Positions 1 to 49,169 of a stretch of DNA of 49,800 bases are shown piece after piece. The translations under genes and the position numbers were made by a program. Within the stretch, counting starts at the first letter, position 1; every line of letters begins with the position of its first letter. Source of the stretch: a virus; the IMG/VR virus record IMGVR_UViG_3300046787_000575, positions 1 through 49,800 of that record, one strand, 5' to 3'. The notes beneath the pieces are model-generated. The model was not told where the DNA came from and did no database searches. It saw only the letters and a program-made list of their open reading frames with translations.

Positions 1-203
1 TGATCTCCTGGGTGCCTGGAGAGGGTAAATCGCCTGACCGAGTTGATGCCCTTGTTCATGCACTGACAGCCCTTCTAATCAAGCCACCAGCAGGATTCAG
101 CGGCGGAAAACTACGCGCAAAGAGCCTGGGAGACCGAAAAATGGGTCTTCCTGGCGCTAGTAGGGGATTTCAGGGCCGTAGCGGAGGTTTCAGAGTCCGA
201 TGA
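1..203 (+). CDS. terL: Terminase large subunit, C-terminal end (partial)
   Basis: Only the last 66 codons are inside the window (reading frame starts at base 3). They include ISWVPGEGKSPDRVDALVHA, followed by LTALL. A proline-glycine turn followed by SPDRVDALVHALT is typical of the end of the nuclease domain of phage large terminases, where the Asp of the DA(L/V) segment helps bind catalytic metal. The protein would drive ATP-powered DNA packaging through the portal and cut the concatemer. The last roughly 45 residues are basic and glycine-rich. The stop overlaps the next start as ATGA (200-203), so the genes are translationally coupled. The ATPase domain is outside the window, so the assignment rests on this tail plus the position upstream of the portal. 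Confidence 0.82.
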   Translation, partial: ISWVPGEGKSPDRVDALVHALTALLIKPPAGFSGGKLRAKSLGDRKMGLPGASRGFQGRSGGFRVR

Positions 204-562
204 AGATCGTTAAGGATGTTTTTCCTGCTCATGTTGCGGTAGTACCTGCTGGTTTTACCGAAGACGTAACAGAAATTAAGTCTGCACCAGCCACGGAGGG
301 TGCTTACTACGTCTCGAAGACTAGAGTTGTACTTACGGAAGACGTAATCACTATTGCAGTTGACAGTCCTGACGGTGCTTCCATTATTTTTTATGAAAAG
401 TATGCAGAATACATCCCGGAACTCCAAAAAGGCAGCGATATCAGGGTAATAACCGACTCAGGGAAGATAGTTGCCTTCAAAAAGGACACAAACTGCGGAT
501 GCGGGTCTAGACTTAGAAGTTGGAACCCCTATAAGACGCTAAACTCGATCAAGGACATGTAA
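200..562 (+). CDS. Hypothetical protein between terminase and portal
   Basis: This encodes 120 residues, starting at the ATG that overlaps the terminase stop. A GGAGGT ribosome-binding site lies at about 183-188, rather far upstream. The protein looks beta-rich and has no signal peptide or membrane segment. Near the end it has CGCG (Cys99 and Cys101) followed by SRLRSWNPYKTL, a compact Cys/basic motif that could bind metal or nucleic acid. I do not recognise a named family. Its stop overlaps the next ATG (TAATG), placing it in the packaging/head operon, so a minor role in packaging or head assembly is the natural guess. Confidence 0.75.
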   Translation: MKIVKDVFPAHVAVVPAGFTEDVTEIKSAPATEGAYYVSKTRVVLTEDVITIAVDSPDGASIIFYEKYAEYIPELQKGSDIRVITDSGKIVAFKKDTNCGCGSRLRSWNPYKTLNSIKDM

Positions 563-852
563 TGACTCAGATAGATATCTTCACTTTTGTCATTCTCGCC
601 CTAGCCTCTATCCGATTGACGCGTCTAATAACTATTGATGTAATATTCGAGCCGATTAGAGAGCGTATCTGGAAGAAATTTCCTCCGCACTACGGCTTTG
701 GCTACCTATTCACTTGCAGCTGGTGTACTGGTTTGTGGGCTTCTGCTGTTGTAATTGCTTTGTATTTAGTAGTACCACCAGTTGGCTATGTGGTATCATT
801 AGTGTTGTCTATCTCAACAATTGTTGGGTACATAGCTTCGCGTATCGATTGA
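562..852 (+). CDS. Small membrane protein, DUF1360-like
   Basis: The 96-residue product has hydrophobic stretches at about residues 5-22, 58-73 and 74-93, so it is probably an integral membrane protein. The segment ASIRLTRLITIDVIFEPIRE and the motif CSWCTGLWAS at residues 52-61 match the pattern I associate with DUF1360, a small-membrane-protein family of unknown function found in phages and bacilli. The CxxC pair may bind metal or form a disulfide. The ATG overlaps the upstream stop (TAATG) and AAGGA lies just before it. A membrane protein between terminase and portal is slightly odd for a head operon; superinfection exclusion or envelope modification are possible roles, but nothing in the sequence settles this. 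Confidence 0.75.
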   Translation: MTQIDIFTFVILALASIRLTRLITIDVIFEPIRERIWKKFPPHYGFGYLFTCSWCTGLWASAVVIALYLVVPPVGYVVSLVLSISTIVGYIASRID

Positions 853-865
853 CAGGGAGTCCCAC

Positions 866-2614
866 TTGGGCATTTTTAGACGTAACTCTAAGCAGACCCC
901 GGCAGGTCCTCGACCTACCGGAATACGTGGTTCTGCTCCGAGAAGCGCGACCTCAATCGCACCCGGAATTTCTATAGACTCTTTTGGCCTTGTATATGCA
1001 GAGCCAGTAGCCTACAACTCACCGCGTCCTCTAACTGCTGCAGCTGCTCAGATCAAGATGGGCGACAAGAACGAGGCAGAGCAGTTTAAGGCTCGCCGTC
1101 AGTCGGCATCTACCTCATGGCAGACAGAAGCGTGGGAATATTACGACGCTATCGGTGAAATCAAATATGCTTTCAACCTTGTTGCATCTGTTGTTTCTCG
1201 TATCCGCCTCTACGTTGCCGTAGTTGACGACCCAGCCGAGGCTCCAGTTGCAGTTAATAAGTCTGACACCGTTCAGCAGGACCTTGCCTCTGCCGCAGAG
1301 CGCGCTCTAAAGCGTCTGGACTCTGCTTATGGAGGTCAGTCTGGCCTTCTTAAGGACTGCGCACTAAATCTTCAGGTTACTGGCGAGTGCTACCTAGTTC
1401 AGATCCCTGAGCGTCTAGGCTCAGGCCTCCCTGAGTCCTGGGACATTCGCTCAACTGACGAACTTCAGATTGACCAGAAGGGCAATTACATCATCAATCC
1501 TCGTCGCGAGGTTGGTGGAGGTTCTTCTTCTATGTCTGCTGGCAAGAATGCCATCAAGCTTCCTCGCGATGCGTTCATCGGTCGCGTTTGGAAAGCCCAC
1601 CCACGCTATAGCCAGGAGTCTGACAGCTCGCTACGCGGCCTTCTAGACCTCTGTGCTGAACTACTACTCTTGAACCGTACTTTCCGTGCTACGGCCCGTT
1701 CTCGCCTCAATGCGGGTGCCCTGTACTTGCCAGACGGTCTATCAGTAGCTGCGTCTCCAGACCCAGACTACCCGTATGATGAAGACGGCGAATACAACGA
1801 GCAGTACAATATGGAAGAGGCTGCCGACGACTTCGAAGACCAGCTCATCGATGCGATGACCACTCCGATTAAGGACGAGGACTCAGCTAGCGCCGTAGTT
1901 CCACTTATCATCCGCGGTCCTGCTGAACTTGGCGACAAGATTAAGCAGTTTAAGTTTGAGCGTTCATTCGATGACTCTCTAGTTGCACGTGCTGACCGAG
2001 TACTCGACCGCATCATGCAGGGTCTAGATGTTCCAAAGGACATCGTTACTGGTCTTGCCAACGTTAAATACTCAAACGCTATGCAGATTGACGAGTCACT
2101 CTACAAGGCTCACATCGAACCACTGATGCTTCTGATTGCAGACGCACTGACTGTTGTTTACCTGCGCCCTTACCTAATCGCTAACGGCTACTCAGCGGCT
2201 GATGTCAACCGCCTGCACATCTGGTACGACCCATCGGCCGTAGCTACTCGTAATGACCGTGCTTCAGATGCTGACGCAGGTTTTGACAAGATGGCTGTCA
2301 GCTTCGACACTTGGAGACGTACTCACGGATTCTCAGATCAGGATGCCCCTACAGCTGCAGAGCTAGCGATGCGTCTAGTGATCAACAAGGGTGCTATCAC
2401 TCCAGAGTTTACTCAGGCCCTTCTCGGCGCTGTTGCTCCAGATATCATCAACCTAACTCGAGAGATCCAGCAGGAAGAATCTGTTGCCCCGATCCCGCCA
2501 GAGCTAGACAAACTTCTCAATGACGCTAACGCCCCTACAGCAGAAGCGGCACCTGAAGGTGAAGATACCCCTGCTGCCCCGATTGTCCCACTAGCAGAGC
2601 CAGAGGCCCTATAA
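866..2614 (+). CDS. Portal protein
   Basis: This 582-residue protein would form the dodecameric ring at the head vertex through which DNA enters and leaves. Segments typical of actinophage portals are visible: an early helical block GEIKYAFNLVASVVSRIRLY, VTGECYLVQIPE, the phrase KYSNAMQIDESLYKAHIEPL, and a C-terminal acidic, Pro/Ala-rich tail. The length fits the family. The start is a TTG at 866, with AGGGAG at 854-859 six bases upstream; no ATG fits better. It follows the terminase group and ends one base before the Dps-like gene, so the two are almost certainly cotranscribed. Confidence 0.85.
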   Translation: MGIFRRNSKQTPAGPRPTGIRGSAPRSATSIAPGISIDSFGLVYAEPVAYNSPRPLTAAAAQIKMGDKNEAEQFKARRQSASTSWQTEAWEYYDAIGEIKYAFNLVASVVSRIRLYVAVVDDPAEAPVAVNKSDTVQQDLASAAERALKRLDSAYGGQSGLLKDCALNLQVTGECYLVQIPERLGSGLPESWDIRSTDELQIDQKGNYIINPRREVGGGSSSMSAGKNAIKLPRDAFIGRVWKAHPRYSQESDSSLRGLLDLCAELLLLNRTFRATARSRLNAGALYLPDGLSVAASPDPDYPYDEDGEYNEQYNMEEAADDFEDQLIDAMTTPIKDEDSASAVVPLIIRGPAELGDKIKQFKFERSFDDSLVARADRVLDRIMQGLDVPKDIVTGLANVKYSNAMQIDESLYKAHIEPLMLLIADALTVVYLRPYLIANGYSAADVNRLHIWYDPSAVATRNDRASDADAGFDKMAVSFDTWRRTHGFSDQDAPTAAELAMRLVINKGAITPEFTQALLGAVAPDIINLTREIQQEESVAPIPPELDKLLNDANAPTAEAAPEGEDTPAAPIVPLAEPEAL

Positions 2615-2615
2615 C

Positions 2616-3107
2616 ATGCACGACTACGAAATGGAACCTATCCAAGTAAACCCAGAGAACTCGGGTGTTGATCTAGCGCTTCTACTTGCTCGCACCGTTG
2701 CTGACTCTGTTGTTGCAGCTAGCATTGCTCACGGCTATCACTGGAACGTGCTTGGCCCTGATTTCGCTGAGTACCACGAGTTCTTCGGCGAGATCTATGC
2801 TGACTTCGATGGTTCGATTGACCCTACCGCGGAGCTAATCCTCACCCTTGGACACGAGGCCCCGTACCTACTAACCGATTTCCTAGAACTTACTTGTATC
2901 CAGGAAGAGCGCGTCGATGGTCTAAACACCACCGCTATGTTTGAATCTCTCCACCGAGTAAATGGGATCCTTATTGGCCAGTTTGATAAGGTCTTCGCCA
3001 TGGCAACCGACATTAACCGCCAAGATGTTGCTGACTTTGCAGCAGCACGTCTAACTTCCCTGCACAAGCAGGCGTGGCAGATTAAGGCAACTCTAGGTAT
3101 TCGCTAA
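2616..3107 (+). CDS. Dps-like mini-ferritin (DNA-starvation/ferroxidase family)
   Basis: The 163 residues fit a Dps four-helix bundle. The signature HGYHWNVLGPDF is followed by EYHEFFGEIYADFDG and DPTAELILTLG. The ferroxidase ligands are intact with the family spacing: His42, His54 (12 later), Asp69 (15 later) and Glu73 (4 later). Known Dps proteins form 12-subunit shells that oxidise Fe(II) with peroxide and store iron, and many also bind DNA. Here the N-terminus is short and acidic, lacking the lysine-rich tail many Dps use to bind DNA, so iron/peroxide detoxification is more likely than DNA compaction. The ATG lies one base after the portal stop, and a strong terminator follows. A virion-associated role cannot be excluded. 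Confidence 0.88.
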   Translation: MHDYEMEPIQVNPENSGVDLALLLARTVADSVVAASIAHGYHWNVLGPDFAEYHEFFGEIYADFDGSIDPTAELILTLGHEAPYLLTDFLELTCIQEERVDGLNTTAMFESLHRVNGILIGQFDKVFAMATDINRQDVADFAAARLTSLHKQAWQIKATLGIR

Positions 3108-3120
3108 GCCTGTAAAATAG

Positions 3121-3151
3121 CCCCGGAGCCAAAGCTCCGGGGTTTATTTTT
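3121..3151 (+). terminator. Rho-independent terminator after the portal/Dps unit
   Basis: A perfect 9-bp GC-rich stem (CCCCGGAGC at 3121-3129, GCTCCGGGG at 3134-3142) with a four-base loop is followed directly by TTTATTTTT. This is a textbook intrinsic terminator ending the terminase-portal-Dps transcript. The remaining bases to 3254 hold no gene and no convincing -35/-10 pair. Confidence 0.92.
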
Positions 3152-3254
3152 ACCCTAATCCAAATAACATACCCCAGTGTTCTGTAAACTTTAAATAGGC
3201 TATTTTTAGCACCATAGACTTATCGCGTTTTTGGCGGTCAAAAGAAGGATACGC

Positions 3255-6200
3255 ATGTCTTATCTAGACAAATTCAAGCTTGAAGCAATTGTTGCCGGTA
3301 TCGGCTTTAACGACGGCGCTAACAAAGGCTTCTGGAGAATCCAACCTCGCGACCGTATCAAGCGCTGGGTTGAGATGGGTGCCGAGCTTCGTGCTGCTAT
3401 CAAGGCTAACGGCAAGGTAATCAACGCTCACGGTCGTTCAGTTGGTTCAACTGGTAAGCCAGACGAAGTTCGAGTTTTGTTTGAGGGTCTAGGCGACGCA
3501 GGCATCCCAGATGGCGTTTACGCCGTCCCTTCTCGCTTTATCGAGAAGGTTACCGCTGTTCTTCCAGAGGAATACGTAAAGAACAAGGGTGGCAAGCTAG
3601 CTACCGACGTTAAGCCTCTAAGCACTGATGGCGACGTTCCTGACATCGCTGAGCTAGAGCGTGCTGACGTAACTCCTGACGACATTCGCGTTGCTAACGA
3701 AGGTATCAACTCTCCAGAAGGTATAGAGCAGGAAGCTTTCAAGGATTCGGAAGAGGGCAAGGCCATTGCCGAGCTTCCTACTGGAACCGAAGAGCCTATC
3801 TCAGGCAACGAAGCGATTGAGCAGGCAACCACCAATGAAGAGTCTTATTCTCCAGAAGACCTAATCAACAATGCACTCAACAAAGCTGGTAATGACGAGC
3901 CAGTTAACGTAGACGATCTAATCATGGCCATGAAGCGCCCTGGCAAGCTGGAAGACGACAACGGCGACGACGATGTCTACGACCCTTCTAAGGACAAGAA
4001 CCTTGTAAAGAAGGCCCCGGAAGGCACAGTTAAGAGCTTCCCTCAGGATCTAGTACGTGGAACAGTTGTTCGCGACAAGGACGGCAACGAGCAGGGTGTA
4101 ATCCTAGATAAGCCAGAGAAGTTTACTGCCAGCGACGGCAGCACCGGCTACTCCTTCCACACGATGCTACCAGACGGCACTGTTAAGCAGCTTAGACTAC
4201 GCCGTCAGCAGGAGCTTTACACTGACACCAAGCGTCGTGAAGACCGTAACCTCCCTAAGCCGCCTTTCGCCTCAGACAAGCCAGCTCCAGCCCCTAAGGA
4301 AACCCCTAAGGCTCCAGACGCTCCTAAGACCCCTGACGCTCCAAAGGAGCCAAAGAGCCCAGAAGCTCCTAAGACTCCAGAGGTTCCACCAGTAGACAAA
4401 ACTCCTAAGGCTCCTGAGTACGACGGCCCTACCTTTATTCCTAAGGAGCGTCCAGACAACGGTCAGGACATTGCCCTACCAGATACGAACGAGAACACCC
4501 TTTGGGCTAAGAAGGTTGCACCACTTCGCGATGAGAACGGTAAGAAGGTTCGCGCAATCGACCCTGAGACAGGAGACTTCAAGTCTACGTTCGCCGAGAG
4601 CCCAGACGCTATTCTTAGCGCTATCTTCGAAGAGTATCCTGACGCCGTAATTATGGACAACGGAAGCATCCTGGTAGAGCGCACCAGCTTCTCTGACCCA
4701 GACGGTACGGAACGTCAGTTCGAGTCTATGATTCACCGCACCAAGGGTAGCAACTACATGATCAGCTACCGCATCACCGAGCCTGACGGTACTTCAAAGG
4801 AGTACTTCAGCCACGACTACCGCGACTCATTCAGCTCTATCCACGGTAAGACAAATGGCATCATGCGCATGAGCGCAATCCTTAAGGGAGACCTACCGTC
4901 CGACTACCTACCTAGTGCTCGACGCGATAACAATAAAATATGGAGGACTTACTTCGCCACTGGAAAGCTGGCAGATCGTTTGAAGTATTTCCGCGGCAGC
5001 GAGGACCCTAATAAGGCAAGAGTTACTGAAGATACTCTAATCCGAGACCTTGCCCGCGCAGAGGCCGGAGGCAACAAAAACGAGATCGGCCTAGCTGAGT
5101 ACAACCTCAACTTGCTACGTAATGATTTCGGTGGAGACATCAAGGCTTACCGCGAGAATGCGGCTATCCAGACTATGTCTCTTCTTACCATCGATGAAAT
5201 CACCGATAAGTATGCTACCGGACGATTCGTAAAGTACAACAAATCTAGCGGTAAGGTACTAGGCACCACTCTTAAGAGCAATGTTGACGGTGTTTACGGA
5301 AGCATCAAGGATAAGGATCACGAGGGTGTTATCGAAGCTCTTGATCAGCTATCTGGTCGACTTCCTGATCTAGTCAGAAACGAGGAAGTCGCTCTGCAGG
5401 TCCTTGACCGCCTTCGCGCAGGAATGCGCAAGCGCTTCCCCGAGGCAAACAAGCAGTCGCTCAGCGGTATTATAACTAACGGTTATAACTCATGGGTCGA
5501 GAAGGATTACAGCCCCGAGGTTCTAGATGCTGCTCCTCACGTTTCAGGAGCTGGTGCTATCGTTGGCAAGAATATGCTCGTTCGATACGAGAACGGTGAC
5601 GGCCAGTACTCTGTAGGTATCGTTCACTCTGTTCTACCTAAGGATAAGAGTGATGACCCTAACAGCCCTAACGTCTACTTCGACTATGTAAACGTTTCCT
5701 TCAGAGGCCAAGATGGCAAGATTGACGCACCAACTAGGGTTTCGGCTAAGAACCTAACAATTCTAGATGACACTCTAGATGGTACGGAAATTCCTAAAGA
5801 AGCTCTAGACCAGATGACTATCTACACTCCCGGCCTGAAGGGTGAAGAGCGAATTCGCGAGCGTTTTGGTGACAAGTTCTTGATCCCTCAGAAGTCTCGC
5901 TTCAGGGATTACTTCCCTGGCGCTACGGACACTATCTCTAGCGGATACAGTCCACGAAGCACAGACCCTGCCCAGTACAACGTCGATGATCTGATTCCTG
6001 GAAAGTACTTGTACGATAGCGAAGGTCTACCTGTAGGTCAGATTGCTGCAGTTCGAGACACCACCTCCGAGTCAGGCGATAAGGGCTACACGTTTGCTCA
6101 CGTTGGTCCTGACGGTGAAGTCGGCTTCACCTCGGTCAAGGCTGGACAGACTCGAGCACCTAAGGCAGACATCTCTAAGGAAGATGGCCGTGGATCATCA

Positions 6201-7553
6201 GCTTCAGACGAGGGCTTCACGCCTAACCCGGCTGACTTCCAGGATGCCGGACTAGATGCCGAAGGAATTGGCTCTGACTCTTCAGATGCCGAGCAGGCTC
6301 TGGTTGACACTGTAGCTGACAGCACGTTCCTACGTTCCTCGGAATCACTTCTAGCCATAGCGGAGCTAGCTAGCTTGACTAAGGCTAAGTTCGACTACGA
6401 GAACAGCGAATCGGACGAGGATAAGGCGACTACTAAAGAAGCGTACAAGACCCTTGTAGCCTCTTACTACACTCGACTAGCCAAGTACAAGGCTATGGCG
6501 GCTAAGTTTGATGGCGCGGACTACGACCCGGCTTCTATCCCTAGTGATTCGATCCTGGATTCTTCTGATGTAGTAGCTATAAATGCAAAAATTAAGGCTA
6601 CGCACCCGCCTTTCAAGGCATCTAACAGAGGCAACACTAGACCTGTACGCACATACGATGAGCTTGTAGAAAAATACTCTAATCCTGAAAACACTTACTC
6701 AGGATATTTGCCAGAGGGCTGGAGCGCACCGTCTGCTTCATCGGTTGTAGAAGAGGCGCAAAGCAAGTCTAAGACCACCTTAACCCTCATAGCAGAGGGC
6801 CTACTGGGGGGTAAGGTCAGTATCTCCGACTCGGTCTTCGATATGTTCTCTAAGAGAGCTGCTCTAGAGCTTTTCGTTAATAGCTCCTCTGGCGAGTTCA
6901 AAACCCCCAACTACCACCGACTAGCGAACGCTACCGGAGACCGTGTCGACGTAAGCACGAACACTAGAGCTGCAGACTACGTGGCTCAGGAGCGGTACAT
7001 TGATGTTTCAGCATCTGTTATTAGTGCCCTCCGCGATAAGCTAGATCTAGGTGATGCTCCGCTAACTCACGTTCTTCAGAGCTCTTCTGATGTCGCGGGA
7101 CTCGGGTCAGGCGGTGCGTTCGGTTACGTTTGGTCAAGGGATATGTTTGATCCCTACGACAATTTCGCTAACTTCCACTCAATTGTTGACCGAGTAAATC
7201 GATTTATTGAAGATCTGCAATCTTCTCCTCGCGAGAACTTCGTGCAGGGCCGCTCGTGGTTTGCCGTAGATCTCAGCCAGAACCCGGAGCTTGCTGTACG
7301 TTATGTGGCGTCTCACGAGCTCGGTCACGTAATGCAGGGCAAGATTCTACGAAACCTAGACGTATACCCTAGTCAACGCGAGTGGGATAGGCTTTACGGC
7401 CCGGTTGCTGACTCGTACCGCATTAGTCAGTACGGCACATCGAACTACAACGAGCACTTCGCCGAGTCATTCGTTCGATGGGAACTTACCGGTGAAGCCG
7501 AGCCTCAGTTCCTAAAGTTCCTCACTGACTCTAGACTATTGAAGAATAAGTAG
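3255..7553 (+). CDS. Very long head-region protein with C-terminal HExxH zinc metalloprotease motif
   Basis: I chose the ATG at 3255 (1432 residues) because AGAAGGA lies six bases upstream; a TTG at 3231 would add eight basic residues but has no good site. The N-terminal ~110 residues (GFWRIQPRDRIKRWVEMGAE and on) form a compact domain of a kind seen near phage portals. A Pro/Lys/Glu repeat linker built on KAPDAPKTPDAPKEP lies at about residues 342-392. The middle is long and of unknown fold. Near the C-terminus HELGH gives His1354, Glu1355 and His1358, and NEHFAESF supplies Glu1400 and Glu1404 as possible third zinc ligands. This layout resembles MuF-like head proteins carrying a C-terminal enzyme or effector that may be injected with DNA. 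Substrate and role are unknown. Confidence 0.78.
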   Translation: MSYLDKFKLEAIVAGIGFNDGANKGFWRIQPRDRIKRWVEMGAELRAAIKANGKVINAHGRSVGSTGKPDEVRVLFEGLGDAGIPDGVYAVPSRFIEKVTAVLPEEYVKNKGGKLATDVKPLSTDGDVPDIAELERADVTPDDIRVANEGINSPEGIEQEAFKDSEEGKAIAELPTGTEEPISGNEAIEQATTNEESYSPEDLINNALNKAGNDEPVNVDDLIMAMKRPGKLEDDNGDDDVYDPSKDKNLVKKAPEGTVKSFPQDLVRGTVVRDKDGNEQGVILDKPEKFTASDGSTGYSFHTMLPDGTVKQLRLRRQQELYTDTKRREDRNLPKPPFASDKPAPAPKETPKAPDAPKTPDAPKEPKSPEAPKTPEVPPVDKTPKAPEYDGPTFIPKERPDNGQDIALPDTNENTLWAKKVAPLRDENGKKVRAIDPETGDFKSTFAESPDAILSAIFEEYPDAVIMDNGSILVERTSFSDPDGTERQFESMIHRTKGSNYMISYRITEPDGTSKEYFSHDYRDSFSSIHGKTNGIMRMSAILKGDLPSDYLPSARRDNNKIWRTYFATGKLADRLKYFRGSEDPNKARVTEDTLIRDLARAEAGGNKNEIGLAEYNLNLLRNDFGGDIKAYRENAAIQTMSLLTIDEITDKYATGRFVKYNKSSGKVLGTTLKSNVDGVYGSIKDKDHEGVIEALDQLSGRLPDLVRNEEVALQVLDRLRAGMRKRFPEANKQSLSGIITNGYNSWVEKDYSPEVLDAAPHVSGAGAIVGKNMLVRYENGDGQYSVGIVHSVLPKDKSDDPNSPNVYFDYVNVSFRGQDGKIDAPTRVSAKNLTILDDTLDGTEIPKEALDQMTIYTPGLKGEERIRERFGDKFLIPQKSRFRDYFPGATDTISSGYSPRSTDPAQYNVDDLIPGKYLYDSEGLPVGQIAAVRDTTSESGDKGYTFAHVGPDGEVGFTSVKAGQTRAPKADISKEDGRGSSASDEGFTPNPADFQDAGLDAEGIGSDSSDAEQALVDTVADSTFLRSSESLLAIAELASLTKAKFDYENSESDEDKATTKEAYKTLVASYYTRLAKYKAMAAKFDGADYDPASIPSDSILDSSDVVAINAKIKATHPPFKASNRGNTRPVRTYDELVEKYSNPENTYSGYLPEGWSAPSASSVVEEAQSKSKTTLTLIAEGLLGGKVSISDSVFDMFSKRAALELFVNSSSGEFKTPNYHRLANATGDRVDVSTNTRAADYVAQERYIDVSASVISALRDKLDLGDAPLTHVLQSSSDVAGLGSGGAFGYVWSRDMFDPYDNFANFHSIVDRVNRFIEDLQSSPRENFVQGRSWFAVDLSQNPELAVRYVASHELGHVMQGKILRNLDVYPSQREWDRLYGPVADSYRISQYGTSNYNEHFAESFVRWELTGEAEPQFLKFLTDSRLLKNK

Positions 7554-8157: not shown

Positions 8158-9687
8158 ATGATTAGGTACCTCGGCACGCTAGACAACTCTGCCCTATTCT
8201 CTTACGAGGGTCAGGCAATTGTAGTAGACACTCAGCTTAATATTGTCACTCAAGCTGACTCTCTATCTACCTTGTCCGAGGAGTTTGCTGACAGCTTTTA
8301 TGAAGCACCTACTGCCGAGGCTCTCTATCTAGCTAACAACTACTTTGCAGTTTCAGACCTACGAGCTGTCACAGCTGCTGCCAGCAGAATGTATACCATT
8401 CCTGGTGGTGCTCAGGCCGAGGCCAAGAAGGCTCTTGCGTGGCGCAAAGAAGAGAAGCGTGGTGGAACTCCGGTTGGTCTGAACACTGCTCGTACTCTTG
8501 CAAAAGGCGGCCAGATCGGTATCGAGAAGATCCGTCACATCGCGAAGTACTTCCCTCGTCACGAAGTTGACAAAAAAGGTGAAGGCTGGAAGCCTGGAGA
8601 AGATAACTTCCCATCTAACGGTCGTATTGCCTGGGCACTCTGGGGCGGAGACGCCGCATGGCGCTGGGCTTCAGCTATTGTTGAGCGCGAGAACAAGGCT
8701 GTTACTGCTGGAGCATATGGTTTCGTACATCAGTCGGACCCTATGAACCCTTTCAAGATTGCCCACGAGCTAGACGAGAACTTCGGTCCAGAATTTATTG
8801 CTCGCGTGCGCCTCGATGGTTCTGGCTTTGATCGCCTATATAAGATTGAAATCGACGGAACTGTCTGCGTTTGGGATGACTGCTGCTGGGATGACCTAGG
8901 CAACGTAGACTCTGACATCTGGACCTATGACCGCGCACTAGACGACCCTTACGACACTGTTGGTAAGGACCACGTAATCATTGACGCTGGTTCTGCACTA
9001 ATTATTGCAGGATTGCTGGACCGAAACCCTCACATTCCTGTAATGATGGAGGACATTGATTCAGAAGAGGCTAACCTGATGGCCCTTGGATTGATGGAAG
9101 AAGATGTTGATTTTATCGACACTGCTTCCCTAGTCTCTGCAGCTGCTGCTCCTGGAGCTTCCCCCGAGGGCACCGACAAAGATGGAAACTACACTCCTGA
9201 AGAGCGATCAAAGCTTGCTCAGGGGCAGGCACGTAACGCGCTAGGACGCTTCGCTACTGTCGGTCAGCGTGTTGCTATTGCAGGAGACACCGAGCGCGGC
9301 TCCGGAACTATTACCAAGATGAATAGCAAGGCAGCTACCGTAGATGTCCAGCTTGACTCGGGCAAGACCGTAACCGTTGACACTAAGGTTACTCAGCCTC
9401 TAGATAGCATCCGTAAGGCTTCTGCTGCCAAGAAGATGGTTAACATGGAGAACCAGCCGCTAGATACTTCAGGTATACTAGCTGAGCCACGTACCCCGTA
9501 CAACTACACCAAGGGGCAGCTCCCTGGAACTCTGCCTCCAATGACCAATGCTGAAGTCGGCAAGATGATGAATAGCTGGAACAGCTGGGTCGCGGGACAG
9601 CGAGCTTCTTTCAAGCCTATGCCTGGTCAGAAGAACCCATATGCCGTTGTTAAGAATGGCAAGATCACTACCCAGAAGACTAAGTAG
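8158..9687 (+). CDS. Putative head/structural protein with GRF motif
   Basis: This 509-residue protein has several distinct segments. Residues ~85-175 contain ALAWRKEEKRGGTPVGLNTA and, further on, FPSNGRIAWALWGGDAAWRW, a conserved-looking basic/aromatic domain that I have only an impression of from other phage head proteins. The middle is acidic and aromatic. Around residue 355 is ARNALGRFATVG, a (R)xxxGRF-type motif, followed by a small beta domain (GQRVAIAGDTERGSGTITKM) that looks SH3/KOW-like. The C-terminal ~60 residues are Pro/Asn-rich. It starts directly after the previous stop. It lies just upstream of the maturation protease, so a minor capsid or internal head role is likely; no enzymatic motif was found. 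Confidence 0.72.
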   Translation: MIRYLGTLDNSALFSYEGQAIVVDTQLNIVTQADSLSTLSEEFADSFYEAPTAEALYLANNYFAVSDLRAVTAAASRMYTIPGGAQAEAKKALAWRKEEKRGGTPVGLNTARTLAKGGQIGIEKIRHIAKYFPRHEVDKKGEGWKPGEDNFPSNGRIAWALWGGDAAWRWASAIVERENKAVTAGAYGFVHQSDPMNPFKIAHELDENFGPEFIARVRLDGSGFDRLYKIEIDGTVCVWDDCCWDDLGNVDSDIWTYDRALDDPYDTVGKDHVIIDAGSALIIAGLLDRNPHIPVMMEDIDSEEANLMALGLMEEDVDFIDTASLVSAAAAPGASPEGTDKDGNYTPEERSKLAQGQARNALGRFATVGQRVAIAGDTERGSGTITKMNSKAATVDVQLDSGKTVTVDTKVTQPLDSIRKASAAKKMVNMENQPLDTSGILAEPRTPYNYTKGQLPGTLPPMTNAEVGKMMNSWNSWVAGQRASFKPMPGQKNPYAVVKNGKITTQKTK

Positions 9688-9770: not shown

Positions 9771-12700
9771 ATGGCAGAACAAGCCACTAAGTTGACTCCG
9801 GAGACGTCTGACGTAGCTCCGCTGTACTTTGCTATCGTCTCGCCTGATGACCCTCAGGCAGTCATGGACCTAATCGCTCTTACACCGGCTACCTCTAATA
9901 CTACCGAACTAGCTGCGTTCAAGCGTAAGGACAAAGCATGGGTTCCGGACGCTCAGATCGTTAACGACCTAAAGTCAGCGACTCCACCGCCGGTAGTTCC
10001 TATCGACAGCTCGATCCTTAACGACATCCTTCAGCAGGTTGACGGCCTTAAAGAGATTCAGGCTTCTGCCCTGTCTACTCTTTTCACCTCTTTCTGGTCT
10101 TCAAATCCTGGCTCAGCGATAGCTGCAGCCGGTGGTCTAGACCGCAACCGTGGAAACGCAGAAGAGCTTCGCCAGTACTGGACTCGCGGTAAAGGCGCTG
10201 CCAAGATCCGCTGGGGCACCAAAGGCGACTGGACTCGTTGTGTTCGTCAACTTTCAAAGTACATGGGCCCACGCGCTAAGGGCTATTGCCAGTTGCGCCA
10301 TCACGAAGTGACTGGAATGTATACGGGCGACCGTCGCAATCCAGGTAACGATTTCTCGTATGCCGATTTCTCTCAGGGCATGGTAGAGAAGAGCGCGATG
10401 AGCGCTCGCATCACCGATGCTAAAGAGCGCATGGCAATTGTTGCTGGTGCATCTCCTGTAGAAGCTCAGGGCTCGGGCTTCACTATTCCTCTAGTTCTCC
10501 CTGAGAACCTAGAGTCTGGCGACGGCCGAAAGTTTGACGCGGATTCTGTAACTATCCGTGAACTACCTCTGCCATTGATGTGGCAGATTAAGACCGGAAA
10601 TGGTCACCAAGGTTCGGTAGTAGTCGGCCGTATCGACTATATGGAGAGAATCGAAGGCGGTATCGGCAACGCCACTGGTGTTTTTGATACCGGCGCTTAC
10701 GGTCGTGAAGCAGAGCGTCTAGTGCGCAATGGATTCCTACGTGGAGTGTCTGCTGATCTAGACCAGTTTGAGGCTAAGGAAGTCGACTCTGAGAATTCAG
10801 AGGATGACGACAACGAAGTCGAGAAGAGTAAACTTACCATAAATAAAGCACGCGTAATGGCTGTTACAATTGTACCTAAGCCTGCTTTCCAAGAGTGCAC
10901 CATCGCGCTATCTAGCTATGGCACCGCAGACCAGGAGGACCAGATGATTCCAGAAGACGGAATCTATGAAGAAACTGTAGATGCAGAGGGCGAACTACTC
11001 GCTGTAACTGCGTCTGGCTTCCTGTCTCAGGAGATCCCATCAACCCCGCCTTCAGAGTGGTTCTCAGACCCTCAACTAGGCAAGCCGACCCCAATTACTG
11101 TTGGTGAAGATGGTCGAATCTTTGGTCACATTGCTGCATGGCACGTAAACCACATTGGTATGCCTCGTGCTACCAAGCCGCCTCGCTCGAAGAGCAAGTA
11201 CGCCTACTTCCACACTGGCGTTTGCCGCACTGACAACGGTTCAGATGTTCCAGTAGGTCAGCTAACTCTTGCTGGAGGACACGCTCCTCTAGATGCCGAT
11301 GCAGCTTCAGCTGCCCGCCACTATGACGACACCGCTTCGGCAATTGCTGACGTTCACGCTGGTGAAGACGCTCATGGCATCTGGGTTGCCGGCTCTCTAC
11401 GTCCAAATGCTACCGAAGGTCAGATTCGTGCACTTCGCGCTTCTGCTCCTTCAGGCGACTGGCGTCCAATTAACGGATCGCTTGAGCTCGTTGCAGTATG
11501 TCAGGTAAACGTTCCAGGATTCCCTATCGCTCGTGCGATGGTTGCTTCAGGTAAGGTTCTAGCTCTTGTTGCAGCTGGCGCACACTACATGGCAATCATG
11601 AAGAGCGAGCCTACCCTAAAGCTTGCAGAGAAAGCTGCTATCTACGCAGAACTATCTATGTCTGCCGATAGCGCTCAACTATCTACTCGTGTTAAGAAGG
11701 CAAAGCGTAATCTGAAGAAGATTAAGTCTGCTCAGAACATCGAGTCTCTGACTGCCAGCGTCGACTCCATGCGTCACGCTGCCCTAGTTGCAGCTGCTGA
11801 AGCAGAGTTCGCTAAGTTCTCGGATGATGACCGACAGAAACTTGCTAAGCGTGGTCTAGCACTCCCAGATGGCTCATACCCGATTCGTAACGATGACGAC
11901 CTACGTAACGCTATTCAGGCTTACGGTCGAGTAAAGCCAGAGAACAAGGTCAAGCTACGCAAGCACATTGTCAAGCGTGCACGTGCTCTTAACAAGGCAT
12001 ACCTTATTCCAGAAGGCTGGGCTAACGAGGCATCTTCTAGCGCCGAGGCCCTAGTTGCCAGCATGCGCGACAAGATTAATGATCTAGTTGCTGCCGCTCC
12101 TAAGCCTGAGAAAGAGATTTCTGACGTAGAGCTAGATAAGCTTCGTAACGCTAAGGAAGAAGCTGACGCCGAGGCTGAAGCCGAGAAGCAGCTTATCGAA
12201 GATATCAAGGACGGTAAGCCTGTAGAGGGTGACAACGTTAAGGATGGCTACGATGACGAGGGTCGCTCAAAGTATACTGCTGAGACGCAGCCTCGCGATG
12301 CTCGCGGTAAGTTCCGTAAGGTTCTTGCTCGTCTAAAGCAGGACCTAGGCGTGGCCGGTCTACAGGAAGCTCTCAAGCAGGTAGAAACCGCTGAGAACAT
12401 GGAATTTGCTGGTAACTATGTAGGTGCATCTGATGCTGCTGACAAGTTGATTAACACAATCGACCGTCTCGACACAGGTGCTCTAGACGCTACTAAGCTA
12501 GAGAATGTCCGCAACACTGCGGGCGAACTTGGAAAGGTAATTGCCAACCTACCGTTGCCATTTACCAACCAGGCTCAAAAGGTTAGATTTAGCGATCTTC
12601 CTCCTGCGCTGAAGAATCTTATCGACGATATGATTTCACGCGTAGAAGACAAGATCGGTAAGAAGGACGCAGACATTGCTACATCAGAACTGCGAGCTTT

Positions 12701-12776
12701 CAAATCAGGTGCAGATGTTTACAACCAGTCTGAGATCTCCTCACGAATGGCAACACTGCTCCGACTCCTTACCTAA
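9771..12776 (+). CDS. Capsid maturation protease, long multidomain form
   Basis: The 1001-residue protein starts at an ATG with AAGGT-type purines upstream. Residues ~230-360 look like a prohead protease domain: GFTIPLVLPENL, LPLPLMWQIKTGNGHQGSVV with a candidate catalytic His, then RNGFLRGVSADLDQFEA with a candidate Ser. A second related domain, residues ~445-605, contains GHIAAWHVNHIGMPRA and GGHAPLDADAASAARH. Residues ~697-735 contain LPDGSYPIRNDDDLRNAIQA, a small helical domain common in phage structural proteins. RDARGKFRKV occurs near residue 840. Such proteases cut scaffold or delta domains from the capsid protein during head maturation, which fits the acidic extension of the next gene. 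Which domain is active is not certain. Confidence 0.8.
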   Translation: MAEQATKLTPETSDVAPLYFAIVSPDDPQAVMDLIALTPATSNTTELAAFKRKDKAWVPDAQIVNDLKSATPPPVVPIDSSILNDILQQVDGLKEIQASALSTLFTSFWSSNPGSAIAAAGGLDRNRGNAEELRQYWTRGKGAAKIRWGTKGDWTRCVRQLSKYMGPRAKGYCQLRHHEVTGMYTGDRRNPGNDFSYADFSQGMVEKSAMSARITDAKERMAIVAGASPVEAQGSGFTIPLVLPENLESGDGRKFDADSVTIRELPLPLMWQIKTGNGHQGSVVVGRIDYMERIEGGIGNATGVFDTGAYGREAERLVRNGFLRGVSADLDQFEAKEVDSENSEDDDNEVEKSKLTINKARVMAVTIVPKPAFQECTIALSSYGTADQEDQMIPEDGIYEETVDAEGELLAVTASGFLSQEIPSTPPSEWFSDPQLGKPTPITVGEDGRIFGHIAAWHVNHIGMPRATKPPRSKSKYAYFHTGVCRTDNGSDVPVGQLTLAGGHAPLDADAASAARHYDDTASAIADVHAGEDAHGIWVAGSLRPNATEGQIRALRASAPSGDWRPINGSLELVAVCQVNVPGFPIARAMVASGKVLALVAAGAHYMAIMKSEPTLKLAEKAAIYAELSMSADSAQLSTRVKKAKRNLKKIKSAQNIESLTASVDSMRHAALVAAAEAEFAKFSDDDRQKLAKRGLALPDGSYPIRNDDDLRNAIQAYGRVKPENKVKLRKHIVKRARALNKAYLIPEGWANEASSSAEALVASMRDKINDLVAAAPKPEKEISDVELDKLRNAKEEADAEAEAEKQLIEDIKDGKPVEGDNVKDGYDDEGRSKYTAETQPRDARGKFRKVLARLKQDLGVAGLQEALKQVETAENMEFAGNYVGASDAADKLINTIDRLDTGALDATKLENVRNTAGELGKVIANLPLPFTNQAQKVRFSDLPPALKNLIDDMISRVEDKIGKKDADIATSELRAFKSGADVYNQSEISSRMATLLRLLT

Positions 12777-12904: not shown

Positions 12905-14899
12905 GTGGATCAGATCAAATCACAGCTTGACGCTCTAGCTGACCTGAACGACGAGCAACTCTCGGAACTTCAGAGCACTATCGTAAGCGAATTTGAAATG
13001 GTTGAGGGCGAAGAGCCTACTTCCGAGACAGTTGATGCGATGACGTCACTTGCTGACGCTCTCGACACAGTTCGTGGTGAGCTTTCTCGCCGTGAGGCAC
13101 AGGCTGAAGAACTAGCTGCACGCGCAGCTGAGGCTACCGCACGTGTCAAGGGTGTAGAAGAGACTAACGAAGATGGAGAGGCTATGGCCGACGTAACCGA
13201 AGAGGAGACCGTTCCTATGGACGAAGCTCCTATGGAGGAAGCTCCTGTAGAGGAAGCCCCAGCGGAAGAAATTCCTGCTGAGGAAGAAGCTGCAGAAGAC
13301 GAGGCTGAGGAAACTCCAGCTGAGGAAGATGAAGAAGAGTCTAAGAAAAAGGCCTTCTCAACTGACGAAGCTGAGACTGATGTCGTATCAACTATCGAGG
13401 AAGAGAGCACCGAGCTTTCAACCGACGTAACCGAGGAAGCAATTGCTGAAGTAGAGGCAATCGAGCTTTCAACCGAAGAAGCAGAAATCGTAGAGGCACC
13501 AGCTGAGGCTGTTGTTGAAGCGGTAGAGGCATCAGAGGAATCAACTCTAGAAGAATCAACCGAAATTGCGCCAGAAGCGCAGGAAGAGCAGGCACCCGTG
13601 ACCGCCGCAGCAGAACAGCCTTTCGAGGCTCCAGCTGACCGTCAGCCTGTAGTTCAGGTATTCGAGGCAGCTCCAGTGGCAATCACTGCGGGCGCTGACA
13701 TTCCTGGCTACACCGCCGGCAGCACCATCAACGATATGACAGAAGTTGCTCAGGCAATGGAAAAGCGTATCCACTCACTACGCCGTGTAAACGGTGGCGA
13801 CGGAGAGCAGCACATTGTTGCCTCGATCACCACTCAGTTTGACGACGCACGCACCCTAACCACCGATGCAGAGGCTAACTCAGCTAAGATCTCAGCTTTC
13901 TCAGTTGACTCAGCTCTTGTTGCTTCTGGTGGTCACGCTGCACCTCTAGAGGTAAAGTATGACATCTTCGGTTTGGGTTCAACCACTGTACGCCCAGTTC
14001 GTGACTCATTGCCACGTTTCCAGGCTGACCGTGGCGGTATCCGCTATGTAACCCCACCGTCATTCGCTGCTGGTACCTATGCTGACGCTGTTGGTGTATG
14101 GACTGCTGCTGTTGACGCGACTGCTATTGCAGACGAGGCTACTAAGGCATCTCTTACCGTTTCAGCTGCTAACGAGCTAACTGCTACCACTGACGCTGTA
14201 ACCCTACAGCTACAGTTCGGTAACTTGATGACTCGCGCGTATCCAGAGCTAATCGCACGCCACAACGAGCTAGCACTTGTGCAGCACGCTCGCGAGGCAG
14301 AGCAGAACCTTCTAACCAAGATTGGTGCAGGCTCAACCGCTGTTACCACTTCTTCGCTAATCGGTTTCGGTCGCGACTTCCTAGTTCAGATCCGTCGTGC
14401 AGCTGTTGCTTACCGCTCACGTCACCGCCTAGACCCTCAGACCACCCTAAAGGCAATCGTGCCTTCATGGGTATACGAGGCAATGGCCGCTGACCTAACC
14501 CTATCAATGCCTGGAGACAACACCATTGCTGTTTCTAAGTCAGAGATCGATGGCTACCTAGCAACCGTTAACGTTGACCTAGTAGCTTCACTAGACGCAA
14601 CTGTCTTTGGCTCACAGGGTGCTGCTGCACTTCTTGAGTTCCCAGACAGCTTCGACTGGTTCTTGTTCGCTGAGGGAACCTTCTTGTTCCTAGATGGCGG
14701 CACCCTAGACCTAGGTATCATCCGTGACTCTTCACTAGTCGGCACCAACGACTACAAGATGTTCGTTGAGACCTTCGAAGGCCTAGCAAAGGTTGGTATT
14801 GAGTCACTCAAGATCACCTCGACCATCAGCATCAACGGTGTTGCTGCAGCACTTCGCGACACCACTGGTGGCGCAACTGCAGCTGCTATCGAGCTCTAA
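12905..14899 (+). CDS. Major capsid protein with fused acidic N-terminal scaffold-like region
   Basis: The start is GTG at 12905 with AGGAGGT four bases before it. Of 664 residues, the first ~250 are extremely acidic and repetitive (MDEAPMEEAPVEEAPAEEIP and similar) with coiled-coil character. The rest, from about residue 260, looks like an HK97-type capsid core, for example SLPRFQADRGGIRYVTPPSF, then EAEQNLLTKIGAGSTAV and RDFLVQIRRAAVAYRS, ending in a beta-rich C-terminus. An acidic N-terminal domain removed by the maturation protease (the delta-domain arrangement) is known for HK97-like phages, and the protease gene is immediately upstream. A hairpin follows the stop. The core codons are markedly uniform, as expected of a very highly expressed gene. 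Confidence 0.85.
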   Translation: MDQIKSQLDALADLNDEQLSELQSTIVSEFEMVEGEEPTSETVDAMTSLADALDTVRGELSRREAQAEELAARAAEATARVKGVEETNEDGEAMADVTEEETVPMDEAPMEEAPVEEAPAEEIPAEEEAAEDEAEETPAEEDEEESKKKAFSTDEAETDVVSTIEEESTELSTDVTEEAIAEVEAIELSTEEAEIVEAPAEAVVEAVEASEESTLEESTEIAPEAQEEQAPVTAAAEQPFEAPADRQPVVQVFEAAPVAITAGADIPGYTAGSTINDMTEVAQAMEKRIHSLRRVNGGDGEQHIVASITTQFDDARTLTTDAEANSAKISAFSVDSALVASGGHAAPLEVKYDIFGLGSTTVRPVRDSLPRFQADRGGIRYVTPPSFAAGTYADAVGVWTAAVDATAIADEATKASLTVSAANELTATTDAVTLQLQFGNLMTRAYPELIARHNELALVQHAREAEQNLLTKIGAGSTAVTTSSLIGFGRDFLVQIRRAAVAYRSRHRLDPQTTLKAIVPSWVYEAMAADLTLSMPGDNTIAVSKSEIDGYLATVNVDLVASLDATVFGSQGAAALLEFPDSFDWFLFAEGTFLFLDGGTLDLGIIRDSSLVGTNDYKMFVETFEGLAKVGIESLKITSTISINGVAAALRDTTGGATAAAIEL

Positions 14900-47838: not shown

Positions 47839-48576
47839 TTATCGCTTCTGGTGATCCGGGAACTTGTTGTCCCAGACATCTTTACCCTTAAAGTACAGAC
47901 GTCCTGATTCGTGCGGCTTTTCTTGGTCTACAGTTTGGCGGGCCGTAGCAAAATCTGAACCTATAGCCCACTCTTCTTCTATTTCTTGTTTGGTGAATAG
48001 AGTAGCTGCGTCTACTAACTTAAAATCATCGACGTAATATCTCTGAATAGGGATAAATGCCCCTATCGGATCCCCCTTCTTAAAAGAAACCCGTACCCCT
48101 GGCTCGGTTATTTTTATGTTAAAGGTGAAATCTCTGCGTAGGTTGTCCGCCTCCACTACGCCAGTCATGTGGTGAACCCCGTGCTGTGGCATATTTGGTG
48201 GGGTTATAGTCATCAGGTTTACTCCCGGGGCTGTTCTAAAGTGCCAAGGATTTTGTATGGTTATGATGCCCTCACCGAAGTGCCCTGAGATTTTTTGCAT
48301 CTGAGCCCCTGGTCCCGGGTAGATGTGGACTCCATCAGGGGAAGGAGATCCGTCCCAGATTGCTTCAAAGTCAAACTCTGCTTTAAAGATGAATCCATAT
48401 TGGTTGCCGATAGTTAGAGGTAGACAGTAGTAGAAGTGCGGGTTGAACCATTCTCTCTTTATCTCTCCTCGCAACGGCCCCATAAGCTGAAAAGCTTTAG
48501 TACTGTCTACCCCCGCGTTGAGAACTACCGCTATGGCCTTATCAGGGACTAAGCTATCTGCAGAGTTTATCGTCAT
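47839..48576 (-). CDS. DUF6065-like protein
   Basis: The 245-residue protein carries NPHFYYCLPLTIGNQYGFIF, ISGHFGEGIITIQNPWHFRT and GVNLMTITPPNMPQHGVHHM, a pattern I associate with DUF6065, found in actinophages and bacteria and of unknown function. Gly- and His-rich loops and beta-strands suggest a jelly-roll type fold, possibly metal binding. Its ATG overlaps the oxygenase stop as ATGA, so it is in the same operon as the oxygenase. Such proteins have been seen with oxygenases, but I cannot state a role. Confidence 0.75.
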   Translation of the reverse strand: MTINSADSLVPDKAIAVVLNAGVDSTKAFQLMGPLRGEIKREWFNPHFYYCLPLTIGNQYGFIFKAEFDFEAIWDGSPSPDGVHIYPGPGAQMQKISGHFGEGIITIQNPWHFRTAPGVNLMTITPPNMPQHGVHHMTGVVEADNLRRDFTFNIKITEPGVRVSFKKGDPIGAFIPIQRYYVDDFKLVDAATLFTKQEIEEEWAIGSDFATARQTVDQEKPHESGRLYFKGKDVWDNKFPDHQKR

Positions 48577-49169
48577 TGGTAGGTGTCATCTTTTTTAGAA
48601 ATATCGGTAGTCCAGAAGCTGGCGATGGTGTATCTAGTTCCACTTTTTACGGCTCTAACACCATGCATATACTCGGTAGTCCCTGGAAAAGTAGCCAGCA
48701 TGCCTGGCTCTGGTTTAATGTCTATACCGTGATGAGGAAAATAAACCTCCCCTCCTTCATAGTCGTCATTTAGGTAGATCACAGATGCCTGCTCTCTCCA
48801 CGGATACGGATGTGGTAGGCCGTTCTCGTGCTGAGAGTCAGCGTGAGGCATCTGATCGTTTCCTGGAAGCCACCTAACAAGCTGAAGCATATCTGCATAT
48901 ATAGGTCCGGAAAACTCTCGAGTAGTTAGTATATGATCCCTAACTCGTAGCCTGATGTCTACCAGTACCTCTAGACACTTCTTATCAGAGATGTCCGCAG
49001 AGTACGCGTCACTGTGACCCCGTAATACAAACGGATTTATTATCCGACCATTCCAACCATAATCATGGGTACCCCAGGCGTTGGCTGCATTTAGCCTCTC
49101 TATTGTGGAGTTTACGATCTCTAGTTCTTCTTTGGTGATGAAGTTTTTTACTACAGAGATCATTACCAT
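48573..49169 (-). CDS. 2-oxoglutarate/Fe(II) oxygenase, prolyl-4-hydroxylase-like
   Basis: The 198-residue protein has the double-stranded beta-helix pattern with iron ligands His109-x-Asp111 (PHADSQHE) and His169 (YMHGVRAVKSGTRY), and the 2-oxoglutarate-binding Arg179 ten residues later. YLNDDYEGGEVYFP matches the prolyl-hydroxylase family. Known members hydroxylate proline, other residues or nucleobases. Two ATGs (49169 and 49163) are possible; I use the upstream one. Directly upstream, in the same orientation, lie a cysteine-rich protein, a small tail-like protein and a polyproline-ended gene, which could be the substrate. Confidence 0.85.
   Translation of the reverse strand: MVMISVVKNFITKEELEIVNSTIERLNAANAWGTHDYGWNGRIINPFVLRGHSDAYSADISDKKCLEVLVDIRLRVRDHILTTREFSGPIYADMLQLVRWLPGNDQMPHADSQHENGLPHPYPWREQASVIYLNDDYEGGEVYFPHHGIDIKPEPGMLATFPGTTEYMHGVRAVKSGTRYTIASFWTTDISKKDDTYQ

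Follow-up and report, generated by a model that had tools for sequence, protein, structure and literature searches.

The best structural match of the protein considered here is the Pseudomonas aeruginosa Dps PA0962, which oxidizes Fe(II) with H2O2 and, in its iron-loaded form, coordinates the first iron (Fe1) by H37, D64, and E68 and the second iron (Fe2) by only H49 and E68, the residue four positions after the second histidine not being among the ligands reported (PMC10002758). Members of the Dps family are also carried by phages. Dps genes lie near replication genes in Lactobacillus phages (PMC6669764) and are known in 36 further genomes besides those of the gut Gratiaviridae (PMC8008677); for freshwater phages, ferritin has been listed as one of the ROS defenses (PMC6802176). 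Neither linkage of Dps to a portal gene nor its fusion to a protease is described in the passages concerned. A ferritin-like protein, named solely by structure prediction, was reported in the proteome of a Vi01-like phage (PMC10892097). Phage Dps genes have hitherto been read as generic host-stress genes. The family described here is tied to head assembly by a gene order conserved across a phage group and by direct fusion to the protease that matures the capsid.

The Dps gene of the window and its putative ferroxidase ligands

The window, as the whole stretch of DNA analyzed is called here, is a 49.8-kb virus record (IMGVR_UViG_3300046787_000575, positions 1–49,800) with a single Dps gene (Table 1). 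The initial annotation, made from the letters alone, had proposed a Dps-type mini-ferritin, and the assignment was borne out. The product matches Pfam PF00210 Ferritin over residues 23–161 (1.2e-14, 54.9 bits; cut-off 24.5) and PHROG 3636 (1e-19), and its best match among the sequences of solved Dps proteins is 2.5e-15, with profile matches to Dps chains reaching 9.9e-30. The AlphaFold single-chain model (pLDDT 94.3, pTM 0.86) has helices at residues 13–44, 50–77, 86–92, 105–132, and 136–160, a four-helix bundle with a short helix in the B–C connection but no fifth helix at the C-terminus. When this model was compared with the PDB by Foldseek, the best 50 matches belonged to the Dps family throughout, 2fjc (TM 0.93 by target length) among them. 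A fold other than a ferritin bundle had been named as an argument against the proposal; what the model predicts is a bundle of the Dps type. A chance match or a non-ferritin fold is ruled out by the Pfam match, the sequence matches to solved Dps, the model, and the Foldseek result, and the gene product is almost certainly a Dps family member. Its dN/dS of 0.04–0.11 (0.045 against L001 and 0.10 against L002) indicates strong purifying selection. The protein has a pI of 4.5 and no Lys or Arg within residues 1–20, in agreement with the earlier remark that the N-terminus lacks a basic DNA-binding tail. No basic tail of the DNA-binding E. coli type was found at either the N- or the C-terminus of the window Dps; such an acidic protein should not bind DNA alone, and the DNA-binding subtype is not claimed.

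Table 1. Coordinates of the Dps gene, its putative iron ligands, and the surrounding head operon in the window, together with fusion ORFs of related contigs.
Feature	Position	Strand	Evidence or remark
Small cassette gene, conserved	200–562	+	Present in 77/80 portal-selected contigs
DUF1360 cassette gene	562–852	+	Pfam PF07098, 2.4e-13; present in 78/80 portal-selected contigs
Portal protein, directly upstream of Dps	866–2614	+	PHROG 776 portal, 2.6e-107; conserved Dps neighbor
Dps-type mini-ferritin gene, 163 aa, ATG start	2616–3107	+	Pfam, PHROG, AlphaFold, Foldseek
His42 codon, putative ferroxidase ligand (Fe1)	2739–2741	+	Invariant in 179; = H37 of PA0962
His54 codon, putative ferroxidase ligand (Fe2)	2775–2777	+	Invariant in 179; = H49 of PA0962
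Gly58 codon, canonical fifth ligand (Asp/Glu) position, lost	2787–2789	+	Variable in family
Asp69 codon, putative ferroxidase ligand (Fe1)	2820–2822	+	Invariant in 179; = D64 of PA0962
Glu73 codon, putative ligand common to Fe1 and Fe2	2832–2834	+	Invariant; = E68 of PA0962
Intrinsic terminator 3' of Dps	3119–3144	+	11-pair stem and T run; z -5.45
PHROG 2859 protein, 'ARHxVDK...WGG' N-terminal module	8158–9687	+	PHROG 2859, 1.8e-19
Weak Peptidase_S78-like prohead protease segment	9771–12776	+	PF04586, 1.9e-4, 22.1 bits (cut-off 21)
Major head protein	12905–14899	+	PHROG 777, 2.9e-80
Dps-prohead protease fusion ORFs	L017 3517–5781; L020 3543–5360; L024 5154–6962; L028 4304–6571		Pfam

The four putative ligands, His42, His54, Asp69, and Glu73, follow one another at the Dps spacing of 12, 15, and 4 residues, as first read. 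Together with Trp43, Asn44, Tyr61, and Trp154, they are invariant throughout the phage family (179 distinct sequences, part of which were retrieved by patterns containing His42 or Asp69-Glu73). The ligands are also complete in all 47 distinct sequences picked solely via the neighboring portal, a sample free of this pattern bias, and are invariant in the protease-fused domains described below. The description of the ferroxidase center as intact thus stood for these four ligands and failed for the canonical fifth. That ligand, the residue four positions after the second histidine (Asp in the E. coli and Listeria Dps), is replaced by Gly58 in the window Dps, and the position holds G, Q, A, E, N, K, S, or L across the phage family. 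Gln or Met is found there in some plasmid-borne cellular Dps, and judging from these alignments the position appears variable and is not treated as defining for Dps membership. Gly58 need not mean a dead site, because PA0962 binds both irons with the same four ligands. Since the ligands would be contributed by two subunits, their conservation implies a dimer at least. From its residues, the window Dps is likely to be a working ferroxidase.

The portal ORF stops one base before the Dps ORF starts, just as the initial annotation had it. The terminator begins 12 nt past the Dps stop codon and has a folding energy of -25.3 kcal/mol. The strong terminator noted at the end of the gene is real in the window's clade, with equivalent hairpins 3' of Dps in L001, L002, and L008, but is missing in many relatives outside this clade, in which the next gene follows immediately. 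The head operon of the window further encodes a 1440-aa protein (3231–7553) with long Pro/Lys/acidic stretches and a C-terminal, zincin-like HELGH motif; a Pfam search with this protein gave no match, and it is matched in 41 of the 80 portal-selected contigs. Elsewhere in the record, the minus strand carries a 2OG-Fe(II) oxygenase gene (48573–49169; PF13640, 7.3e-10), encoding a second iron-dependent enzyme, and an adjoining DUF6065 gene (47839–48576; 5.6e-42).

Portal linkage and protease fusion among relatives

Relatives were collected both by a Dps search and by a portal-only search, the latter controlling for the bias of searching with Dps. The Dps search yielded 31 viral contigs, and in 26 of them Dps lies right behind a homologous portal gene, mostly preceded by the same two small genes. 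The portal search yielded 80 contigs, 71 of which extend at least 600 bases past the portal gene and were counted; a Dps-family gene is directly downstream of the portal in 68 of these 71. An unlinked position in close relatives, which the initial annotation had named as evidence against its proposal, is therefore not what was found. No Dps was found directly behind the portal in the other three portal-selected contigs, L083–L085, or beside the portal in DSL-LC01, Pumpernickel, and Mimi, the named phages with the nearest portals. The slot is occupied by a protein of about 414 aa with Cys pairs in the former (L083, 6842–8092; L084, 7752–8987; L085, 1924–3168) and, in DSL-LC01, by a 466-aa gene annotated as 'cytoplasmic protein'. 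The absence of Dps beside the portal in these contigs and phages means that it is unnecessary for head building as such, and within the wider phage group a portal-side Dps is an optional feature. The named phages listed as portal relatives all have actinobacterial hosts; the carriers of the portal-Dps pair are many uncultured phages whose hosts are probably freshwater actinobacteria.

A profile search of viral contigs confirmed at least 569 relatives. The comparison of gene order in related phages, proposed in the initial annotation as a check, placed a portal gene at most 1.4 kb upstream in 173 of the 183 informative distinct Dps domain sequences, stand-alone or fused, from all loci retrieved. 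Among the ten exceptions, Dps lies close upstream of a P22/SU10-type portal in L288 and L292, in an unrelated, podovirus-like head module, and between the large terminase and this portal in L288 (940–5256); in L306 it immediately follows the gene for a virion structural protein (PHROG 5838). A few family members do sit outside head modules, for example in L029 (1469–3116), beside a phosphate-transporter-like gene (PHROG 5385). The stand-alone Dps of L022 (2647–3228), L025 (3086–3673), and L023 (3910–4659) end in a Cys-rich C-terminal tail (e.g., CQMCGVGGCVCPACTGGVCNCGAGCTCMIC), possibly a metal-binding extension.

Bacterial contamination was ruled out, since many independent contigs have Dps in the company of genes for terminase, portal, and capsid. 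A genome-contig search for cellular or prophage kin of the window Dps returned a single weak match of 31 residues in Ehrlichia, and no Dps of an actinophage turned up in a tblastn search of 50,697 phage records. Matches to Staphylococcus and Listeria 'phage' Dps in unannotated records were treated as cellular, the two that were checked being wastewater contigs.

A tree was built from 65 phage-family Dps (stand-alone and fused), 10 cellular Dps, and three other phage Dps. All 65 phage-family rows fell into one branch (100/100), apart from the 10 cellular and three other phage sequences; with this small cellular sample and the long branches present, the tree does not settle the origin of the phage Dps. 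The Dps of Synechococcus phage S-SRM01, Bacteroides phage BS162P1, and Aeromonas phage BUCT695, which are located away from head genes, lie outside the branch. The fused rows occupy three places within it, and fusion or fission has therefore probably happened more than once.

These fusions join Dps and Peptidase_S78 in one uninterrupted ORF, usually with an HAD phosphatase-like domain, and were found by profile in 77 distinct domain sequences. In the four fusion ORFs of Table 1, the HAD domain precedes Dps and the C-terminal domain is Peptidase_S78, the prohead serine protease of caudoviruses (1e-40 to 5e-46). The full assembly of PHROG 2859 module, HAD, Dps, and protease also occurs in many of L115–L193, and the PHROG 2859 module of the window protein recurs in the L028 fusion (8e-44). 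Three domain orders were observed in the profile scan, nt-HAD-Dps-S78, nt-Dps-S78, and Dps-S78 (nt, N-terminal module). The fusion ORF lies behind the portal gene (PHROG 12) and, in L020, ahead of the major head protein gene (PHROG 10). Among contigs selected with the L028 portal and having enough downstream sequence, Dps is inside the protease gene in 18; in L213, L215, and L216, whose portals are 74% identical, the protease has the nt-S78 form without HAD-Dps. Such insert-free relatives suggest that the protease can fold without the Dps domain. H579, S630, and E657 (L028 numbering), which we take to be the catalytic residues of HK97-type proteases, are invariant in 24 aligned fusions. The L028 model, used only for domain limits at its mean pLDDT of 69.5, consists of separate folded domains and low-confidence linkers (287–307 and 461–496). 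The HAD domain beside Dps weakly matches a polynucleotide kinase PHROG and, speculatively, might handle oxidized DNA ends. An assembly artifact is ruled out as the source of the fusions by the 77 distinct domain sequences, the several lineages, and the several domain orders. In the window itself the Dps gene stands alone, unfused to a protease, and the product of 9771–12776, by its weak S78 match, looks like the separate counterpart of the protease domain that is fused to Dps elsewhere.

Possible roles of the head-linked Dps

The portal adjacency, the protease fusion, the further head contexts, and the ligands that are never lost point to an enzyme used in head assembly and packaging. We favor, at a probability of roughly 55%, a ferroxidase that is made late, is associated with head assembly, and clears Fe(II) and H2O2 where DNA is packaged. 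The phage-specific Dps would be made in one transcription unit with the portal protein and would work during head assembly and DNA packaging. Its subunits would pair, probably within a 12-mer cage as in other Dps, and at the dimer interface His42 and His54 of one subunit and Asp69 and Glu73 of the other may bind two irons. Oxidation of Fe(II) to Fe(III) with H2O2 at this site would remove both Fenton ingredients near the newly packaged DNA. Packaged DNA binds iron and is unrepairable in the particle, and an Fe(II) oxidation that consumes H2O2 would presumably prevent strand breaks.

The earlier suggestion that Dps protects the phage DNA or packaging machinery, or travels in the virion, is strongly though indirectly supported by the fusions. 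HK97-type proteases work within the procapsid that encloses them, and fused copies of Dps should therefore enter it. They would travel into the head with the protease and would then probably be released by proteolysis at the flexible linkers. For its action at or in the head, the stand-alone window Dps would rely on contacts of its own, for instance with the portal; because it is unfused, its head targeting is one inferential step more remote than that of the fusions. Considering the relatives and the gene order, we lean slightly toward an action of Dps at or in the head for the window protein as well. The mature HK97 protease exits the head as fragments, and fused Dps need therefore not remain in the virion; that Dps is actually carried in virions or procapsids is conceivable, with the balance somewhat against it. 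The broader proposal, that a widespread group of phages packages an active mini-ferritin in the procapsid or virion, either as a portal-linked stand-alone protein or as protease cargo, and that the head thus has its own detoxification of iron and peroxide, is equally tentative. Under such packaging, the HAD domain of many fusions, possibly a polynucleotide phosphatase, could mend oxidized DNA ends. Should this hold, some virus particles would come with oxidative protection as an integral component, and a single purified phage, examined by mass spectrometry and for its iron content, would put the so far loosely argued connection of iron with virions to a direct test. Extensions of the prohead protease, to judge from the fusions, may also be a natural way to load enzymes into procapsids.

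A free cytosolic Dps, made late and shielding the infected host up to lysis against H2O2 and free iron, would require no virion targeting, and the portal slot would then merely be convenient. Host protection is the reading applied to phage Dps or ferritin in earlier papers (PMC6669764; PMC8008677; PMC6802176), and it suits S-SRM01, BS162P1, and BUCT695 with their Dps away from head genes. We nevertheless judge it unlikely for the present family, as it leaves unexplained the 173 of 183 copies behind a portal, the two further head contexts among the few other copies checked, and the prohead protease fusion in 77 distinct sequences.

Head-operon position and protease fusion would also fit a Dps oligomer co-opted for a structural task, be it that of a scaffold, of a spacer, or of an assembly factor at the portal, with the interface metal only holding the oligomer together, and its optional presence fits an accessory assembly part. 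Close relatives, however, make heads without Dps, and the full ferroxidase set, including His54 (Fe2) and Trp43, is invariant in 179 sequences, beyond what metal glue needs; a purely structural role is thus improbable.

A role of Dps as a carrier that brings Fe(III) into the particle or on to the next host, in the style of the 'Ferrojan horse', would account for the head linkage. A Dps 12-mer measures about 9 nm, and once folded it should not fit through the portal channel. The 'Ferrojan horse' moreover is about iron in the tail and the siderophore receptors of Gram-negative bacteria, and the portal relatives found here belong to actinophages. A ferritin-like protein was reported in the mass spectrometry of a Vi01-like phage, but the Vi01-like phages tested did not depend on this route (PMC10892097), and we regard iron delivery as very improbable. 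Scarcely any likelihood is left for DNA processing by a divalent-cation-dependent nuclease activity on host or packaged DNA: PA0962, the best structural match, cleaves DNA in vitro (PMC10002758) and the HAD domain with its weak polynucleotide kinase match adjoins Dps in many fusions, yet no nuclease motif was identified in Dps, nuclease activity is no general Dps property, a nuclease within the head would do harm, and the invariant residues are the ferroxidase set.

Comparison with described Dps proteins and phages

PA0962 (PDB 8ff9; PMC10002758) is both the best profile match (9.9e-30) and the top Foldseek match of the window Dps, with 26% identity in the fold alignment. The two share the four iron ligands, their 12/15/4 spacing, and the lack of a basic N-terminal tail; unlike the window Dps, PA0962 is a cellular stress protein without linkage to phage genes, and it has Glu where the window Dps has Gly58. 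Bacillus Dlp-1, B. brevis Dps, and H. pylori NapA (1ji5, 1n1q, and 1ji4) have the Dps fold and match the window protein in sequence at 2.5e-15 to 1.4e-14. They too differ from it in being cellular and without head context, and Dlp-1 and the B. brevis Dps likewise have Glu in place of Gly58.

The Dps-family proteins of Lactobacillus phages, Gratiaviridae, S-SRM01, BUCT695, and BS162P1 are phage-borne as well, some with an anti-oxidant role proposed. They are encoded near replication or metabolism genes or away from head genes and are not fused to a head protein, in contrast to the present family. A counterpart of the fusions in an isolate is gp006 of the Pontimonas phage phiPsal1, which shares the N-terminal module and the S78 protease and is 56% identical to the L028 fusion across 205 aa; with 484 aa and neither HAD nor Dps between the two, it represents the insert-free form. 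A search of the open-access literature, weak for this restriction, returned no paper with both Dps and prohead protease in phages or metagenomes, and a similarly restricted and weak search for Dps as an 'auxiliary metabolic gene' returned nothing. The kind of enzyme is thus known; what looks new is the variation on it, with a constant location within the head module and a joining to the prohead protease.
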